Assembly (NCBI RefSeq): GCF_013409595.1
Contig: NZ_JACCBD010000001.1
Location: 1,426,001-1,490,000, forward strand
Reading direction: 5' to 3'
Source of the DNA: Leucobacter aridicollis
GTDB taxonomy: Bacteria > Actinomycetota > Actinomycetes > Actinomycetales > Microbacteriaceae
DNA: 64,000 nucleotides
Both the position numbers and the translations under genes were made by a program. A model generated the notes under the pieces. It was not told where the DNA came from, ran no database searches, and worked only from the letters and a program-made list of their open reading frames with translations. Below, piece by piece: positions 43,989-52,624 of the stretch (the first letter of the stretch is position 1; each line of letters starts with the position of its first letter).

Positions 43989-45206
<1,218 letters not shown>

Positions 45207-45260
45207 GAGTGGAGATCCTTCGTGGTCACTGAGTGTGTGTCTGAACGCCACTCGTGAGAC

Positions 45261-45288
45261 AAAAAACACCGCCTCCGAGAGGCGGTGT
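45261..45288 (-). terminator. Attenuator terminator of trpB
   Basis: Read on the minus strand, a 10-bp perfect stem ACACCGCCTC/GAGGCGGTGT with a 3-nt loop is followed by six T residues, 55 nt before the trpB start codon. It fits stem 3:4 of a classic trp attenuator. Confidence 0.88.
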
Positions 45289-45295
45289 CGAGGTG

Positions 45296-45327
45296 CATGC
45301 AGATGCGTGAAGAGTGACCGCCCTAGG
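45296..45327 (-). promoter_or_regulatory. Downstream half of the trp attenuator (antiterminator strands)
   Basis: On the minus strand this contains ATCTGCATG (45296-45304), the exact complement of CATGCAGAT at the trpL start codon beyond the IS. It also has GGGCGGT (at 45317-45323), which can pair with ACCGCC of the terminator stem. The IS left end abuts it. Confidence 0.7.
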
Positions 45328-46390
45328 TGTACTGACCCGGAGGGTTGTTGACATAGGAGAGACCTTCGTTGTCGAGTTGGAGCTGTCTAGTTCCCCTACT
45401 CGCTCAAACGAAGGTCTCTCATGTCTCACGCTAATGCCCGGCTCGCTCCTGCCGGTAGAATGATCCTGGTCCAACGCATTCAATCGGGTCGCCCTGTCGC
45501 TCATGTTGCCTCGGAGATGGGAATCTCGCGCACGACTGCGTGGCGGTGGTGGCGCAGGTTCCAGGAAGCCGGGGTTACGGGATTACGGGATCGGTCGAGC
45601 GCGGCCAGGTCGCATCCGCGGCGCACTCCCGGATGCATGGAGACCCGGGTGCGGATCGTGCGCGCGCTCACCAGACGTGGCCCGGTATTCATCGCGGGCA
45701 AGCTCGGCATGCACGCCTCGACAGTCGGGCGGGTGCTGCGTCGCCATCACACCCCGTTGTTACGTGAACTTGATCCCGTGACTGGGATCAGGATCCGTGC
45801 GGAACGACGGTCCGCGAACCGATACGAACACGAGTATCCGGGCTCGTTGATCCATATCGATGTGAAGAAGCTCGGCCGTATCCCTGACGGCGGTGGGTGG
45901 CGGCTCCATGGGCGCAGCGAACGTCCGAACCGGAAACGAGGACAAGGGTACGACTACGTCCACACCGTGATCGATGACCACTCTCGTGTCGCGTATGCCG
46001 AGATCCACGACGACGAGAAAGGCGTGACCGCGGCCGGTGTCCTTGAACGCGCGATCGGGTTCTACGCGTCGCTTGGGGTACGTGTTGAGCGTGTCATCAG
46101 CGATAACGCGTTCGCGTACCGGCACTCCGCCGCGTTCAGAGACGTCGTCACCCAGCACAGTATTCAGCACCGGTTCATTCGCCCGCACTGTCCCTGGACC
46201 AATGGGAAAGTCGAACGCCTCAACCGCACTCTCGCGACAGAGTGGGCGTACGCGAGACCCTGGACTTCTAACGACGAACGTCGAGCAGGATTGACGGCCT
46301 GGCTTGACTACTACAACCTAGACAGAGCTCACCTCGGCATCGACGGTCAAACTCCCATCGACCGAGTCAACAACGGTCGAGGTCAGTACA
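45328..46390 (+). mobile_element. IS481-family insertion sequence (1063 bp) with CCTAGG target duplication
   Basis: Ends are TGTACTGACC at the left and its complement GGTCAGTACA at the right. The terminal inverted repeats match at 21 of the first 25 positions. CCTAGG flanks both ends directly (45322-45327 and 46391-46396), a 6-bp duplication that fits the N-CTAG-N preference known for IS481. It carries a single transposase gene. Confidence 0.92.
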
Positions 46391-46395
46391 CCTAG
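45421..46395 (+). CDS. IS481-family transposase (rve/DDE)
   Basis: A 324-residue transposase: N-terminal helix-turn-helix (VAHVASEMGISRTTAWRWWR, about residues 25-44), a second HTH (AGKLGMHASTVGRVLRRH), then the RNase H-like catalytic core. The triad is Asp147 (HIDVKKLG), Asp228 (VISDNAF) and Glu265 (NGKVERLNR). It is intact and probably active. The last codon, ACC, begins with the final A of the IS and ends in the flank; the stop TAG lies wholly in the CCTAGG target duplication, so the target supplies it. Confidence 0.95.
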   Translation: MSHANARLAPAGRMILVQRIQSGRPVAHVASEMGISRTTAWRWWRRFQEAGVTGLRDRSSAARSHPRRTPGCMETRVRIVRALTRRGPVFIAGKLGMHASTVGRVLRRHHTPLLRELDPVTGIRIRAERRSANRYEHEYPGSLIHIDVKKLGRIPDGGGWRLHGRSERPNRKRGQGYDYVHTVIDDHSRVAYAEIHDDEKGVTAAGVLERAIGFYASLGVRVERVISDNAFAYRHSAAFRDVVTQHSIQHRFIRPHCPWTNGKVERLNRTLATEWAYARPWTSNDERRAGLTAWLDYYNLDRAHLGIDGQTPIDRVNNGRGQYT

Positions 46396-46424
46396 GCGGC
46401 CCACCACTGAATCACGATCTGCAT
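46392..46424 (-). CDS. trpL: trp leader peptide (trpL), now cut off from trpB by the IS
   Basis: A minus-strand ORF of ten codons, M-Q-I-V-I-Q-W-W-A-A, ending in TAG. The tandem Trp codons are the hallmark of a ribosome-stalling trp leader peptide. TACACT lies exactly 6 nt upstream of its ATG, so the mRNA probably begins at the AUG. The stop codon lies within the CCTAGG target duplication. Removing the IS and one CCTAGG restores leader, antiterminator and terminator in order ahead of trpB. Confidence 0.85.
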   Translation of the reverse strand: MQIVIQWWAA

Positions 46425-46430
46425 GTGGCG

Positions 46431-46460
46431 AGTGTAGCACCAGCGGCGCGCGCGTGTCAC
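46431..46460 (-). promoter_or_regulatory. trp leader promoter
   Basis: On the minus strand, GTGACA (46455-46460) is followed by an 18-bp spacer and TACACT (46431-46436), then 6 nt to the trpL start. It is divergent from and overlaps the promoter of the SWIM gene, whose -10 (TAGCAT) lies at 46471-46476. Confidence 0.75.
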
Positions 46461-46482
46461 CCGTGGTCGCTAGCATCGAGAC

Positions 46483-47916
46483 ATGACGATGCAGCATGCG
46501 CCAGCTCCGCCGGCCCCGCGGGCGTTTGGCGCGCCGACCGGGCTGGGTCCGGACGGGCTGCTGCTCGGGCTTGCGCCGGCGCTCACCGCGCAGGGCATCG
46601 ACCGTTCGCCGAGTTTCTTCTCGGGGTTCGCGACCGAGCCGCTCGTGCTCGCCCGCGGACTCCTCGTGCTCGCCGACATCACGGCGACCCGTTACTTCCA
46701 GTACGTGCCAACGACGATGCGCGACCCGGTACTCACGGCGAATGGTGACCGGCTGCGGGCGGAGTGCTTCTCAGCCTGCAACAGCGTGTACGCGCGGCTC
46801 GATCTGCTCGGCGATGGCTTCGACGGCGGCGACATCGCGCACGGCACGACGAACGTCGATCTCGGCCAGCAGTCGCGCGCGGTGCTGTCCGGGGTGCGGC
46901 GTGCTGAACTGCTGCATCTTGATGTTGGGTCCGGCGGCGCGGTGCTCGCCACGCCGAGCGCCCAGGCAGCAGAGCGCCCCGTGAACATGCCAGATCGGTG
47001 GGTGCGGGCGTTCGGAAACGTCGCCGAACTCCACGCGCGCATGGCACCACTCGTGACGCTGACCGCGCAGGAGGCGCGCGCCTTCGTCTCGGCCGTTCCG
47101 CCGGCGACGGCGAGCGGCCGAACGGCCTGGCTCGCGCCGACGGCAGCGGGAACGCGGATCGCGTCGCGGCCGACGACCGGGGCGATCGCCGTGCCCGGGC
47201 TGCACCGCCTGAGCGCTGCGAAGCGGCTCCTCCCGCACCTGCGCGGCGCGACCGTCTACGGTGCGCCGCACGCGGAGACCGGCGCGGTCGCCGTCGTCCT
47301 TGAACTCCCGCACGCGCGCCTCACCCTCGGCCTGACCGCGGAGGCGTGGCGCGGTCATTCGGGGGAGGGAGCGCTCCTCGCGGCGCTTGCAGGCGACGAC
47401 GTCGTCGCCGACGCGGAAGTCGTCTCGGCGCTGCTCGCCTTCGAACCCGTGCTCGACGCCGACAGTCTGGCACACGCGGCAGGGATCACGCGGGCCCGCG
47501 CGGACGGGGCGATCGCGGTGCTCGCCGCCTCCGGCAGGGTCGGGTGGGATCTCGCGGACGACGCGCACTTCCATCGGGAGCTGCCGGACGATCCGGCGCG
47601 GATCGAGCGCGACGGTCCGCGCCTCGCCGCGGCCCGAGCGCTCGTGGCCGCGGGTCGGGTGGCGCCGGGCGCGGGTGCGGCGGGCTCGGGGGAGCCTCGA
47701 AGCTGGGTCGTGCGGGGCGGCGAACCCGGCGACCACGCCAGCGACAGTCTGGTGCGTGTCGGCGACGACGGGCAGCTCGTGTGCGGCTGCGCGTGGGGTC
47801 TTCGTCACGGCGCAGGGCGCGGCCCCTGCAAGCACGCGCTTGCCGTCGAGATCGTGCGAGCCCGCGCGTCCCAGCACACCGGTCAGCGCACCCCAACACT
47901 GAAGGAGCAGGCGTGA
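46483..47916 (+). CDS. SWIM zinc-finger protein
   Basis: A 477-residue protein with a SWIM finger near the C-terminus: Cys434-x-Cys436-x12-Cys449-Lys-His451. SWIM domains bind nucleic acid or protein. The N-terminal ~300 residues show no motif I can name. A winged-helix-like part (LDADSLAHAAGITRARADGAI) precedes the finger. TAGCAT lies exactly 6 nt before ATG 46483, so it is probably leaderless. It overlaps the next gene by 4 nt (GTGA), implying a two-component unit. Function unknown; similar SWIM genes occur next to DUF6493 genes in other Actinobacteria. Confidence 0.85.
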   Translation: MTMQHAPAPPAPRAFGAPTGLGPDGLLLGLAPALTAQGIDRSPSFFSGFATEPLVLARGLLVLADITATRYFQYVPTTMRDPVLTANGDRLRAECFSACNSVYARLDLLGDGFDGGDIAHGTTNVDLGQQSRAVLSGVRRAELLHLDVGSGGAVLATPSAQAAERPVNMPDRWVRAFGNVAELHARMAPLVTLTAQEARAFVSAVPPATASGRTAWLAPTAAGTRIASRPTTGAIAVPGLHRLSAAKRLLPHLRGATVYGAPHAETGAVAVVLELPHARLTLGLTAEAWRGHSGEGALLAALAGDDVVADAEVVSALLAFEPVLDADSLAHAAGITRARADGAIAVLAASGRVGWDLADDAHFHRELPDDPARIERDGPRLAAARALVAAGRVAPGAGAAGSGEPRSWVVRGGEPGDHASDSLVRVGDDGQLVCGCAWGLRHGAGRGPCKHALAVEIVRARASQHTGQRTPTLKEQA

Positions 47917-50900
47917 GCGCCTCAGCAGCACTGAACGAATCACTCGCGGTGTACCGCGCGCTCGGCTGGACCGACGCAACCCCAGACCTGCCGCCGGAGG
48001 CGATCCTCGCCCTACCGCTCGGCACCCCGGAGCAACAGCGGACCGCGCGCGCCGGGCTGCAGTCGGGCGAGTGGGGATCCTTTGAAGCTCTCGACGCGGC
48101 GAGCTACGGCTGGCGCAGTTGGCTCGGCGAGGGCGTCCACGCAGGACTGCTCGCCCTGTTCGCCATCCGCGTTGGCGTCTCCGCCAAGCGAGCCGTCGCG
48201 GTCGCGCCAGCGAGCGGTGCCATCGGCGACGAGCTGCTCACAGCGGTCATCGCAGACCGGGATGCGGAGTACGCCCAGAGTTTCGTCACGCACGCATCGG
48301 CGCGCGGCGGACGGATGTGGATCGACGCGACCTCGCGCTTCGCTGGCTCCACGGTGCGACTGGTCCACGAGTTTTCGCTCCCGGTTCCCGAGCGCCTGGA
48401 CTACCTCCGCGACTGGGCCGTCTACGCTCTCGGCGCGCCCGCGAACGAGGGATGGTTGCAGCCCCGCGACCGTGGCGAGATTCCCGCAGCGGTGCTCGGC
48501 CCCCGCTTCCGCGAACACGCGGCGGCCGCGGTCGCCCTCGGACTGAGTGTGACCGGGCCGTTCGGTGTGCTGCTCACGGCGGCGCTCGACCGCGGCTGGC
48601 TCGATGCGGATACCGCGCTCGACCTCGGGTTCGCCGGACTCGACGCCGCGCAGCGGCCCGGCGACCGGAAGGTGTGGGCCGCGTTCCTCACCGAGCATCT
48701 CGGGCTCACTGGTGAAGCGCGCCGCGCAGACCTCCTCGGCCGCGCCGACGCGCTGGTGTCGGCCATCGCGACGGGGGACGCGCCCCTCGCCGAGGCGTTC
48801 GGGCCCGCGCTCATCGCCCACGGCGGCGACGACACGCTGCTCGAGGTGCTGATGCTCGGGCTCGGTGTGAAGCCGAAGAAGGCGCGCCGCGCGTTGCTCG
48901 TCGCGGCCGCCGGCCGCCCCGCTCCCAGCGCCGCCGTCAGCGCCGAGGTTGCCGCGCTCGTGGAGCCGCTCAGGATCGGGAACGACGTGCCGCTCGCCCG
49001 CGCGGCAACGCGGCTGCTGGACGCCTGGGGCGTTGCGCCCGACACAGCCGCGATGGTGGGCGCGGGCGCTGAGCCCGCAGGAGCGGCGCCGGGCACCGTC
49101 CGCGGCCGCTGGGAGCCGACTCCGCCGCTCTGGGAGGTGCCGCGGTTCTCGCTCGGGCTGGACGACGGAGGCCGCGGGGTGCGCGAGTCGCAGAGCCGCG
49201 GGTCACGCACGTCGCAGGGCCGCGGGGTGGGCGAGTCGCGGGGCGCCGCCGCGCTCGCTGCCGTGGACACCGCCGCCCTCGCTGCCGAGGAACTTACCGC
49301 GCTCGCCGCGACCCACACTGACGCGCTCGTGGGAGCCGTGACAGCGGCGGCCGCCGAGCTGTCCGTGCGCCCCGAGGGCGGCGCGGTGGACCCGGTCGCC
49401 GAACGCTTCCTCGCGCTCGCGAACGAGCTGGCCCGGCGTGATCCTGATCTCGCCCGCGCGACCCTCCGCGGCGTGCGCCAGCACTGGGTGCCGGGGCTGC
49501 GCAGTATTGCGCAGTGGGTCGCGGGCGAAAGCCTCCCCGCGCTTGACCGGCCGGCCCGCGAAGCGTTCCCCGGCGCGACGCCGACGGTCTTCGGCCCCGC
49601 TCCCGCCCGCGACGCGGCGGTGACGCAGCGCCTCGGCGAGGTCCCCGTGCTGCTCTCGACTCCGACCTGGGATGACATGCGCCTCTCCGCAGACGCGTTC
49701 ACCGCCAGGCTGCGGTCCTACGCCGCGCAAGAGGTGGCGGCGAGTGAGGCCGACCTCTTCCTCGCCCTGCTCCGGGTTGACGCCGCCGCGGTCACGCCCG
49801 AACAGCGCGACGCGCTCCGCCAGATCGACGTCGCCATCGTCGGCCAAGACGGCGCGGAGCTGCCGGTGCGGGCCGGGTCCGTCGCCGCCGAGTACCTCGC
49901 GCAGCCGCTCACCGAGCCCCAGGTCGAACTCGATACGCAGCGGCACTGGTGGGGGACAGCGCACTTCGAACAGCCGCCGGCGCTCGCTGCGTTCCCCGTC
50001 AGGCTGAAGGCCGACACCTACGGAAGCGACATCGGGGTCGGCGTGCTGCCCGTCGGTGGGGACTGGACCGCGCTGGCGGCCGGGGACCTGGACAACGCCG
50101 AGGTCGGCCTCGTGCTGCGCCAGCTCGTGCGGCGGCGCGAGCCGCTCACCCCTGGCCAGGCCATCAACCTTGTCGGAGCGCAGCGCGGCCCCCACGAGCG
50201 CGCCGTCGTCGACGCGACACTCGCGCTCAGGGAGGGCTGGGATCGCGGGCTCCTCGTTCCCGGCGTCGCCGACGTGCGGAAGCTCGGCTGGAGCGAGACG
50301 CCGACGAAACTCGCCGCCTTCGCGTCCGCGTGCCTCGACCTTGCCGATGAGGGGATGCTCGCCGTCGCCTGGCCGCTCCTCGACGATCTCGTCGCGCTCT
50401 CGGTCGCTGCGCCCAGGCGTCTTGCTGGCACCGCCGAACTCGTCGACGCGATCGGAGAGCTGTTGCCCGCGGTGATCGCCGCGGTTGACACTGGCGTCGC
50501 GCCGGCCGGTGCGCTCCAGGTTTCCGGCGTTCGCGCGCTCGCCGCAGCGGGCGGGTCGTCGCGCGCCGTCCAGCTCGCGCGCGCCGTTGTCGCGGGGCTC
50601 CCGGACGCAGCGCCGGAGCGCGCGCCGGAGACGGCCGAACAGTCGGGACCTGCCGAGCCGACGGGATCTGCCGAGCCGACGGGACATGCCGAGCCGACGG
50701 GACATGCCGAGCCGACGGAGCCTGCCGAGCCGACGGGATCTGTCGAGCCGACGGGCGGGCCGGCAACAGCCGAAGCCGTGATGACCGATGCCGAGTTCGC
50801 CGCGTTTTGGCAGTCCGACGTCGTCGCTCCGCCGGCGATCGATGACGGCGCGACGATCCGCGCGCGCTGGCAGGACCCCGCGGCCTCGACGCGGCTGCTC

Positions 50901-51614
50901 GAGATCGAGCTTGAGTTCCCGCCCGAGCGCCTCGCCGATCCCGCCGACGGACCCCGCTGCTTCCGCACCCGCACGTCATGGTTTTACGACCTCGAGCGCG
51001 AGGGCCAGTGCGGGATGACCGAGATCCTCTCCGACGCCGACGAGGTGCGGCACGCTTCGCGGTCGTGGCTGCGGTGGGATCCCGCAGCGCACGCGATCAG
51101 GATCGCCGAGCACCGCAACTGGCGCGACGGCAACGCTGGCCCGCTCGCGAGCGGGGAACCGGTCCCGCCGCTCACGGTCGGCATGGTCGCCGTGCTGCTG
51201 AGCGGCATGAACCATGACAACGGCAGTGGCTATCACGTGCTCGCGGCGGTGCGGGACGGGCGTGTCGGGGCTGACTCCGTCAGGCTCGCGGTCGCGCGGC
51301 TGTTGGAGAGCCCAGATTTCACTCCGGTGAAGCTGGCAGGCATGATCGAGGCCGAGCCGGACTCGCTTGGCGTGCTGTGGCCAGCGCTCACCGAGTCGGT
51401 TCGCGTGGCCGCCGCACAGCCGAGCCCGCCCCGATGGCTGAACCGGGTGCTCGACGCCGCGCTGCTGCGCTCCGCGGCGTGTGTCGAGGCCTCGAGGCGG
51501 GGGCTGATCCCCGCCGACGCTGCCGGCTGGCCCGGACTCGCCGAGCTCGCGGGCCGCACGGGCACGCAGGCCGCGCTGCGGAAGGCGCGGGCGCTGCGGG
51601 ACGCGCTCGGGTGA
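47913..51614 (+). CDS. Very large DUF6493-like protein, partner of the SWIM gene
   Basis: A 1233-residue protein from GTG 47913, which overlaps the SWIM stop and has AGGAG upstream; the frame is open from 47346. It is mostly Ala/Leu-rich helical, suggesting a repeat solenoid (for example GFAGLDAAQRPGDRKVWAAF). An inserted linker (about residues 912-947) is an 18-bp tandem repeat encoding G-x-A-E-P-T. The C-terminal ~300 residues are a separate alpha/beta-like domain (FRTRTSWFYDLEREGQCGMT, LLSGMNHDNGSGYHVLAAV). No signal peptide or membrane segment. The DUF6493 assignment is from memory of the family and its SWIM neighbourhood. No enzymatic motif seen. Confidence 0.78.
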   Translation: MSASAALNESLAVYRALGWTDATPDLPPEAILALPLGTPEQQRTARAGLQSGEWGSFEALDAASYGWRSWLGEGVHAGLLALFAIRVGVSAKRAVAVAPASGAIGDELLTAVIADRDAEYAQSFVTHASARGGRMWIDATSRFAGSTVRLVHEFSLPVPERLDYLRDWAVYALGAPANEGWLQPRDRGEIPAAVLGPRFREHAAAAVALGLSVTGPFGVLLTAALDRGWLDADTALDLGFAGLDAAQRPGDRKVWAAFLTEHLGLTGEARRADLLGRADALVSAIATGDAPLAEAFGPALIAHGGDDTLLEVLMLGLGVKPKKARRALLVAAAGRPAPSAAVSAEVAALVEPLRIGNDVPLARAATRLLDAWGVAPDTAAMVGAGAEPAGAAPGTVRGRWEPTPPLWEVPRFSLGLDDGGRGVRESQSRGSRTSQGRGVGESRGAAALAAVDTAALAAEELTALAATHTDALVGAVTAAAAELSVRPEGGAVDPVAERFLALANELARRDPDLARATLRGVRQHWVPGLRSIAQWVAGESLPALDRPAREAFPGATPTVFGPAPARDAAVTQRLGEVPVLLSTPTWDDMRLSADAFTARLRSYAAQEVAASEADLFLALLRVDAAAVTPEQRDALRQIDVAIVGQDGAELPVRAGSVAAEYLAQPLTEPQVELDTQRHWWGTAHFEQPPALAAFPVRLKADTYGSDIGVGVLPVGGDWTALAAGDLDNAEVGLVLRQLVRRREPLTPGQAINLVGAQRGPHERAVVDATLALREGWDRGLLVPGVADVRKLGWSETPTKLAAFASACLDLADEGMLAVAWPLLDDLVALSVAAPRRLAGTAELVDAIGELLPAVIAAVDTGVAPAGALQVSGVRALAAAGGSSRAVQLARAVVAGLPDAAPERAPETAEQSGPAEPTGSAEPTGHAEPTGHAEPTEPAEPTGSVEPTGGPATAEAVMTDAEFAAFWQSDVVAPPAIDDGATIRARWQDPAASTRLLEIELEFPPERLADPADGPRCFRTRTSWFYDLEREGQCGMTEILSDADEVRHASRSWLRWDPAAHAIRIAEHRNWRDGNAGPLASGEPVPPLTVGMVAVLLSGMNHDNGSGYHVLAAVRDGRVGADSVRLAVARLLESPDFTPVKLAGMIEAEPDSLGVLWPALTESVRVAAAQPSPPRWLNRVLDAALLRSAACVEASRRGLIPADAAGWPGLAELAGRTGTQAALRKARALRDALG
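50645..50752 (+). repeat. Six 18-bp tandem repeats in the DUF6493-like gene
   Basis: Six in-frame units with consensus GGGAYCTGCCGAGCCGAC encode G-[PSH]-A-E-P-T repeats (one unit begins E-P, one reads S-V). Units three and four are identical, indicating recent slippage. Confidence 0.9.
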
Positions 51615-51664: not shown

Positions 51665-52624
51665 ATGCGTATCGTGTTTGCCGGAACCCCAGAGTTCGCC
51701 GTCCCCAGTCTGCGAGCCTTGGTCGACGCCGGCCACGATGTCGTCGGCGTCGTCACACGCGAGGACGCGCCGCTCGGGCGCAAGCGCGTGCTCACGCCCT
51801 CGCCCGTCGCCCAGGCGGCTTCGGAGCTCGGGATCGACACGCTGAAGGCGAACCGGCTCGGCGACGAGGCGACCGCCTGGGTCCAGGACCGCGCACCCGA
51901 GCTCGGCGTCATCGTCGCGTACGGCGGGCTCATCCGTGAGCCGCTGCTGTCGAGTCCCGCACACGGCTGGATCAACCTGCATTTCTCGGACCTGCCGCGG
52001 TGGCGCGGAGCCGCCCCCGTGCAACGGGCCCTCATGGCGGGGGAGCAGGAGCTCGGGGTGACTGTGTTTCGGCTGGTCGCCGCGCTCGACGCGGGGGACG
52101 TGCTCACGCGCGGCTCGACGACGTTCGCGCCCGGCACCTCAGCCGGCGAGGCGCTCACCGCGCTGTCCGCGTCCGGGACGGATGCACTGCTGCGCGCCGT
52201 CGCACTGCTCGCGGAGGACCCCGAGGCGGGGGAAGCGCAGGTCGGTGAAGACACGTACGCGCACAAGCTCTCGCGCGAAGACGGACTCATCGCATTTGGC
52301 TCGGGGGCGTCTGCGGAGGCCGTCCTCGCGCACTGGGCTGGCGTGACGCCGGAGCCCGGAGCGTACGCGCTCATCGGCGGCGACCCGATCAAGCTGACGG
52401 AGCTGCGTCCGCTCGATGCGGGGCTCGCGGCGGCGGTGCCCGCGGATCTCGCGCCTGGCGAGGCGCGCCTCGTCGCGAAGCGGGCCGTCGTCGGGTGCGG
52501 GACCGTGAACGCTGCAGGAAGCGCCGCCGGGCTCGAGCTCGCGCGTGTGCAGCCGGCAGGGAAGCCGGCCATGGACGGAGCCGCGTGGTTGCGCGGCCGC
52601 GACGGAAAGGCGGACCTCGCGTGA
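51665..52624 (+). CDS. fmt: Methionyl-tRNA formyltransferase
   Basis: Formylates initiator Met-tRNA using 10-formyl-THF. It has 319 residues, with FAGTPEFAVPSLRALVDAGHDV at the N-terminus and the active site NLHFSDLPRWRGAAPVQ (Asn, His); the second conserved Asp is in ALDAGDVL. The C-terminal anticodon-side domain is present. GAGAAT lies 6 nt before ATG 51665, so it may be leaderless. It overlaps rsmB by 4 nt. Confidence 0.96.
   Translation: MRIVFAGTPEFAVPSLRALVDAGHDVVGVVTREDAPLGRKRVLTPSPVAQAASELGIDTLKANRLGDEATAWVQDRAPELGVIVAYGGLIREPLLSSPAHGWINLHFSDLPRWRGAAPVQRALMAGEQELGVTVFRLVAALDAGDVLTRGSTTFAPGTSAGEALTALSASGTDALLRAVALLAEDPEAGEAQVGEDTYAHKLSREDGLIAFGSGASAEAVLAHWAGVTPEPGAYALIGGDPIKLTELRPLDAGLAAAVPADLAPGEARLVAKRAVVGCGTVNAAGSAAGLELARVQPAGKPAMDGAAWLRGRDGKADLA

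Follow-up and report, generated by a model that had tools for sequence, protein, structure and literature searches.

Attenuators that respond to tryptophan are known in Corynebacterium and Streptomyces, and in C. diphtheriae candidates have been described before both trpB1EDGC and trpB2A (PMC1262725). They combine a Trp-rich leader peptide, an antiterminator and a GC-rich terminator (PMC1262725). For IS481 elements an NCTAGN target rule has been reported (PMC2516522, PMC3053399), with one CCTAAC target site also on record (PMC3053399), and insertion of IS481 in a 5′ region is known to alter expression (PMC3053399). In the Leucobacter aridicollis locus described here, a conserved Trp attenuator has been interrupted by an element of the IS481 family, which separates the leader from the terminator and trpB. 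The Leucobacter attenuator has the same three parts as its counterparts in Corynebacterium and Streptomyces but controls a single stand-alone trpB (PMC1262725).

All coordinates refer to the window, the whole 64-kb stretch of DNA that was analysed. On its minus strand, the order of elements is an extended −10 sequence, the leader ORF, CCTAGG, the 1063-bp element (46390–45328), a second CCTAGG, GGCGGTCAC, a linker containing ATCTGCAT, the terminator and trpB. The leader ORF (46424–46392) encodes the ten-codon peptide MQIVIQWWAA with tandem Trp codons, and its TAG stop lies inside the leader-side target duplication (46391–46396). The terminator hairpin (45289–45265) has the sequence ACACCGCCTC-TCG-GAGGCGGTGT and is followed by six T residues (45266–45261). 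The stand-alone trpB (43989–45206, minus strand, 405 aa) is intact. The original prediction had listed this leader, the IS, a 10-bp terminator with six T and trpB on the minus strand, and all of them are present.

The element (45328–46390, plus strand) carries a transposase ORF of 324 aa (45421–46395, plus strand), convergent with trpB transcription, that scored 295 bits against NF033577 (cut-off 224) and thus belongs to the IS481 family. Its inverted repeats span 31 nt including the duplication (25 nt without it) and are 87% complementary. Three identical copies occur in this 3.57-Mb genome, and their target duplications (TCTAGC, CCTAGG and GCTAGG) all fit NCTAGN. Among the 53 other genomes of the genus, a match with E ≤ 1e−50 was obtained in one (G021, 79% identical). 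At the trpB locus the element entered the CTAG that contains the TAG stop of the leader, in keeping with its NCTAGN target, and the terminator-side CCTAGG (45322–45327) marks the other element boundary. Since the target was the leader-peptide stop codon in the attenuator hairpin loop, one palindromic CCTAGG provides stop codons on both strands, that of the leader (46394–46392) and that of the transposase (46393–46395). CTAG is approximately 6.6-fold rarer in the 64-kb window than base composition predicts (28 observed versus ~184 expected), so an element with an NCTAGN preference finds few targets there. At the 5′ end of the transposase gene a 22-nt inverted repeat was observed (45349–45370 and 45407–45428); as the transposase ATG (45421) falls in its 3′ arm, a hairpin may mask the start.

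Once the element was removed from the window sequence and one CCTAGG kept, 96 of 97 positions agreed with each of two related loci, L010 (genome G003) and L009 (genome G019); the stretch compared begins at the leader ATG and ends immediately behind the T-run. This comparison had been proposed as a test together with the original prediction, namely that deleting 45328–46390 plus one CCTAGG should yield the sequence of relatives. Judged from these alignments, the ancestral empty site exists in relatives. The placement of an IS481 element between leader peptide and terminator is thus borne out by the transposase match, the repeats, the duplications and the empty sites.

A consensus scan of 45200–46560 revealed GTGACA-18-TACACT (46460–46431, minus strand) as the sole sigma-70-like site (mean of 0.3 in shuffled sequences). 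The extended −10 sequence TGC-TACACT (46439–46431) lies 6 nt 5′ of the leader ATG, and TGN-TANNNT was found 6–7 nt 5′ of the leader ATG in 22 of the 24 relatives compared; the other two (L028 and L030) have TACGAT at 6 nt without the adjoining TGN. The −35 candidate GTGACA (46455–46460) matches the consensus but is not genus-wide: it occurs in the two closest of the 24 relatives, and five have, at the appropriate spacing, a hexamer that resembles a −35 in at least 4 of 6 positions. The originally predicted promoter sequence is present in the window. With the −10 only 6–7 nt from the ATG, the leader transcript is probably leaderless, starting at the ATG itself. Leaderless messages are common in Actinobacteria.

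The upstream regions of all 24 relatives (L009–L032) contain a Trp-Trp leader and a terminator hairpin. In each, two Trp codons are followed by two more codons and the stop, then by a hairpin and the terminator hairpin. The leader stop is TAG in 13, TGA in eight and TAA in three of them, and all 13 TAG stops lie within CTAG. For L016, L020 and L022 the terminator stem returned by a gapless search was weak or incorrect. Other bases interrupt the run of T behind the terminator in several relatives, among them L014, L018, L020 and L022. In the window, alignment and pairing place strand 1, GGGCCGCC with the core GGCCGCC, at 46395–46402, and strand 2, GGCGGUCAC, at 45314–45322, the latter also in the fold model. 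Strand 3, ACACCGCCUC (45279–45288), identified by terminator scan and pairing, is both the 5′ arm of the terminator and the antiterminator partner, and strand 4 is GAGGCGGUGU (45266–45275). A basal helix, derived from pairing in the aligned rows, joins AUGCAGAU (46417–46424) to AUCUGCAU (45297–45304); all these strands are on the minus strand. The 1:2 helix is formed by CCGCC at the leader end and GGCGG after the stop, hence the element sits in the 1:2 hairpin loop.

In the 22 distinct aligned rows, the 1:2 helix was paired at 95.5%, the terminator at 94.5% and the 2:3 helix at 90%; in the basal helix the AUGC/GCAU part was paired at 94% and the inner part at 59%. L028 and L030 are mis-registered in this alignment (A1) and count against the structure in the pairing and covariation figures. 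For the structure 1:2 plus basal plus 3:4 taken together, 10 pairs changed on both sides versus 5.1 in shuffles (none of 500 as high), more than in any of six slid versions; such changes were seen in 1:2 and in 3:4. In the 2:3 helix no pair changed on both sides and the covariation score was not above shuffles, as would be expected if 1:2 and 3:4 already constrain both strands; the 2:3 helix is consequently without independent support. The complementarity between CATGCAGAT and ATCTGCATG, originally taken for the switching pair, is a real pairing but constitutes a basal helix. As the 1:2 switch it was rejected: the competitor of the terminator is GGCGGU just 3′ of the stop codon, and it is the inner basal pairs that hold at 59%.

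The mutually exclusive helices 1:2, 2:3 and 3:4 are present in the sequence and in the fold model. In the model of the joined, IS-free RNA, the probability of the 2:3 helix, P(2:3), was 0 without a ribosome and 0.99 with the leader masked, from which we infer a Trp-dependent switch. To judge by its conservation, the ancestral locus is a real Trp attenuator.

A covariance model (R1) was built from 19 of the 24 relatives (alignment A2, which left out L016, L019, L024, L028 and L030). It matched in 35 of 54 genomes of the genus. A protein search gave the trpB paralog likewise in 35 of 54, 34 times at full length with at least 80% identity and in G035 as two pieces in different frames. In 34 of the 35 paralog-bearing Leucobacter genomes an R1 match precedes the paralog match by 33–71 nt. 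This genome is among them; its match (41.9 bits) comprises the terminator-side half together with the IS end. G033 alone has no R1 match before the paralog, but its leader is visible by eye. Second matches in G013 and G067, both in long open frames, were set aside as chance, as was a 29-bit match in G071 with a terminator but no Trp-Trp leader, in a genome without the paralog. Three of 395 other genomes of the order were matched, all from one genus; two of these matches precede a trpB 69–71% identical to the one studied here and the third lies at a contig end. Searches with Rfam release 15 gave no gathering hits in the window, and at E ≤ 1 no family match at six relatives' loci, with one unrelated sub-threshold hit.

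Leader matches were also observed at 24 of 80 trpB loci (the best 80 of 565), 13 of them Leucobacter-like (L042–L054); the match at L077 is probably chance. Trp-Trp leaders with a terminator precede a stand-alone trpB in L058, L065, L072 and L076 (Boudabousia, another Actinomycetaceae MAG, Gleimia and Micrococcus lylae, respectively). At L064, L079 (Paceibacterota), L068 and L108, a stand-alone trpB is preceded by a leader of the form ..N(I/A)AWWT(A/T)HI.G*. Possible 2:3 (GUGGGU/ACCCAC) and 3:4 (CCCAC/GUGGG plus T-run) helices occur in all four, and a possible 1:2 pairing (CUCAC/GUGGG) at the leader end in L064, L079 and L108. These four loci are candidate Trp attenuators in Patescibacteria, and L063 and L075 (Nomurabacteria) have weaker versions. 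In the window itself, a 477-aa ORF without an NCBIfam family (E ≤ 0.001) and a 1422-aa ORF occupy 46483–51614, between trpB and an ORF at 51665 that we take to be fmt-like from its start motif. In 16 of 24 relatives the examined trpB flank already contains this motif, which suggests that the strain carries additional genes between trpB and the fmt-like ORF.

The stand-alone trpB scored 564 bits against TIGR00263 (cut-off 392) and carries HTGAHKINH and GGGSNAMG motifs, to which we presume a catalytic role. It is a second copy, 55% identical to the canonical trpB approximately 23 kb away. The canonical cluster (G000:C1:1490822–1496307) comprises trpE, a 230-aa ORF whose product looks like a membrane protein, trpC, trpB and trpA; trpD and trpG are located elsewhere in the genome. 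No tandem Trp codons were found in the 530 nt scanned upstream of the canonical trpE. The original prediction had proposed a test of Trp auxotrophy, and auxotrophy as a prediction was rejected: the trpB studied here is an extra copy, and with trpE, G, D, C, B and A all present (the set looked for; trpF lay outside it) auxotrophy is not expected.

Among the best 80 of 565 related loci, the paralog is closer to TrpBs from other phyla (62–69%) than to the canonical copy. A tblastn search of these 80 loci (flanks ~3 kb or shorter, E ≤ 1e−5, this genome's TrpA as sole query) yielded no TrpA; as positive control the query recovered trpA in two loci of the same genus, which bears on same-genus rather than distant TrpA. 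With no trpA match in these flanks, the paralog does not look like part of an alpha-beta gene pair. Its likeliest role would be indole salvage under Trp shortage, and to judge by identity and neighbourhood, rather than by a tree, the stand-alone trpB may have spread horizontally.

On the branch leading to the window, nonsynonymous/synonymous changes in the stand-alone trpB amounted to 11.2/38.2, versus 0.8/57.8 and 8.2/80.2 on two sister branches (Fisher test on rounded counts, P = 0.0024), whereas five control genes pooled exhibited no such shift (P = 0.17). As the counts are small, this hints at relaxed constraint in the lineage but does not prove it. With an intact ORF and a dN/dS of 0.035 relative to G019, the paralog is not a dead gene. 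The trpB of G003 was initially suspected to be broken, which was rejected because the apparent TAG is a slightly earlier natural end (402 aa). At L041 (G035), where the gene is split over two frames, the Trp-Trp leader and the R1 match are intact; the split indicates either a dispensable gene or an assembly error.

In the ancestral arrangement, the probably leaderless ten-codon leader would end in strand 1 (CCGCC), with strand 2 (GGCGGU) after the stop and strands 3 and 4 forming the terminator. When Trp is present, 1:2 would form, its base closed by pairing of the AUG region with the basal 3′ arm, and the terminator would halt transcription; if a ribosome stalls on the Trp codons, strand 2 would pair with strand 3 and trpB would be transcribed. 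The element then inserted at the CTAG of the leader stop, which lies in the 1:2 hairpin loop, so that leader ORF and terminator are both whole and now have ~1.07 kb of antisense, untranslated RNA between them. RNA reading through would cross the untranslated element against the convergent transposase gene and meet an intact terminator, resulting in low expression. We therefore propose, with a probability of roughly 0.6, that splitting of the Trp attenuator in its 1:2 loop has lowered expression of the trpB paralog and left it poorly Trp-responsive, because of the ~1.1 kb of untranslated RNA (polarity), convergent transposase transcription and the intact terminator. The insertion would be tolerated because the canonical trp genes supply tryptophan. 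Of the three outcomes considered for the net expression effect, this is most likely the one that applies.

Another outcome, which we consider unlikely, is constitutive expression from an outward start close to where the IS ends on the trpB side: such an RNA would have no strand 1, so strand 2 would always pair with strand 3 and trpB would be read through whatever the Trp supply. In the fold model, P(2:3) is 0.92–0.99 for RNAs starting 20–100 nt inside the IS end but near 0 for those starting at 130–300 nt. A promoter facing outward is known close to the left repeat of the Bordetella pertussis IS481 (PMC3053399), but the consensus scan yielded no outward site in this IS. The sole trpB-facing TANNNT in the last ~230 nt, TAGCGT (45433–45428), is weak and has no TTGACA-like hexamer in front of it. 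That the conserved arrangement is no attenuator at all, and consists of chance Trp codons before an ordinary terminator of another transcript, is highly improbable. The lack of an Rfam family match and of 2:3 covariation would agree with it, but leader, spacing, 1:2 hairpin and terminator hairpin recur in 24 of 24 relatives, and R1 matches track the paralog in 34 of 35 genomes, the three elsewhere looking like chance.

That the attenuator works only when its parts are contiguous is not established: when the IS-containing RNA is folded at equilibrium, the two halves still pair. The switch could thus survive if the IS termini pair through their inverted repeats and lengthen the 1:2 hairpin by a side domain, leaving a stalled ribosome able to free strand 2, which we regard as quite unlikely. 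In the full read-through RNA, the basal helix (0.97) and 1:2 (0.74) are kept, and masking of the leader shifts P(2:3) from 0 to 0.81. Without a ribosome, however, RNAs with the whole IS shuffled also re-formed 1:2 (0.54–0.77) and the basal helix (0.97) in eight of eight cases; this re-pairing is therefore independent of the repeats, and re-zipping of the inverted repeats was rejected as proof of function. Only the ribosome-masked state separates real ends from shuffles: P(2:3) was 0.99 in five of five RNAs with the IS ends kept and the interior shuffled, versus 0–0.85 (mean ~0.27, n = 7) with the whole IS shuffled, hence in the equilibrium model the ends of the element insulate the switch. That the insertion is structurally transparent altogether, with a 1:2 hairpin carrying a 1-kb insulated side domain and a stalled ribosome switching a terminator more than 1 kb downstream, is a distinctly doubtful proposition; it would follow from a palindromic target in a hairpin loop having received an element with terminal inverted repeats, and if true would mean that attenuation by a stalled ribosome operates across an IS. 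Folding 1.1 kb at equilibrium leaves out co-transcriptional kinetics, Rho and the convergent transposase gene, and loss of Trp control is the likelier practical outcome.

The locus offers a natural, base-exact test of attenuator contiguity, for which the relatives with an empty site can serve as controls. It also reveals a Trp attenuator without a match in Rfam release 15 on a stand-alone trpB known from several phyla. Leader stop codons may moreover be soft spots for insertion: a leader that ends in ..CC TAG GG.. places the rare CTAG within a hairpin loop, and CTAG is found at the stop in 13 of the 24 leaders.

The published Corynebacterium and Streptomyces triple gGCC-rGCy-GGCC differs from the Leucobacter set CCGCC/GGCGG/CCGCC (PMC1262725). 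The stand-alone TrpB of Pelodictyon luteolum, a TrpB1-type protein, is likewise not co-transcribed with trpA, and the relevant part of that report mentions no attenuator (PMC11917138); the Leucobacter protein is likened to it by description, with no group membership implied. ISLxc2 of Leifsonia xyli (PMC2516522) and IS481 of B. pertussis (PMC3053399) share the 6-bp NCTAGN duplication with the Leucobacter element, and in ISLxc2 the transposase stop likewise derives from the duplicated target (PMC2516522). In contrast to both, the target in Leucobacter was the stop codon of a leader peptide in an attenuator hairpin loop (PMC2516522, PMC3053399). In the literature on IS elements inside attenuators, as far as the available text of the sources extends, no same case was recognised beyond Serratia symbiotica, where an IS1182-family element has separated thrABC from the leader and attenuator that belong to it, likewise through IS activity (PMC4122931). 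There the parts are at different genome locations, whereas the Leucobacter locus represents a simple insertion in the loop with both halves in cis (PMC4122931). What is unusual in Leucobacter is the exact position of the element, in the 1:2 loop at the leader's own stop codon, with both halves of the attenuator whole.
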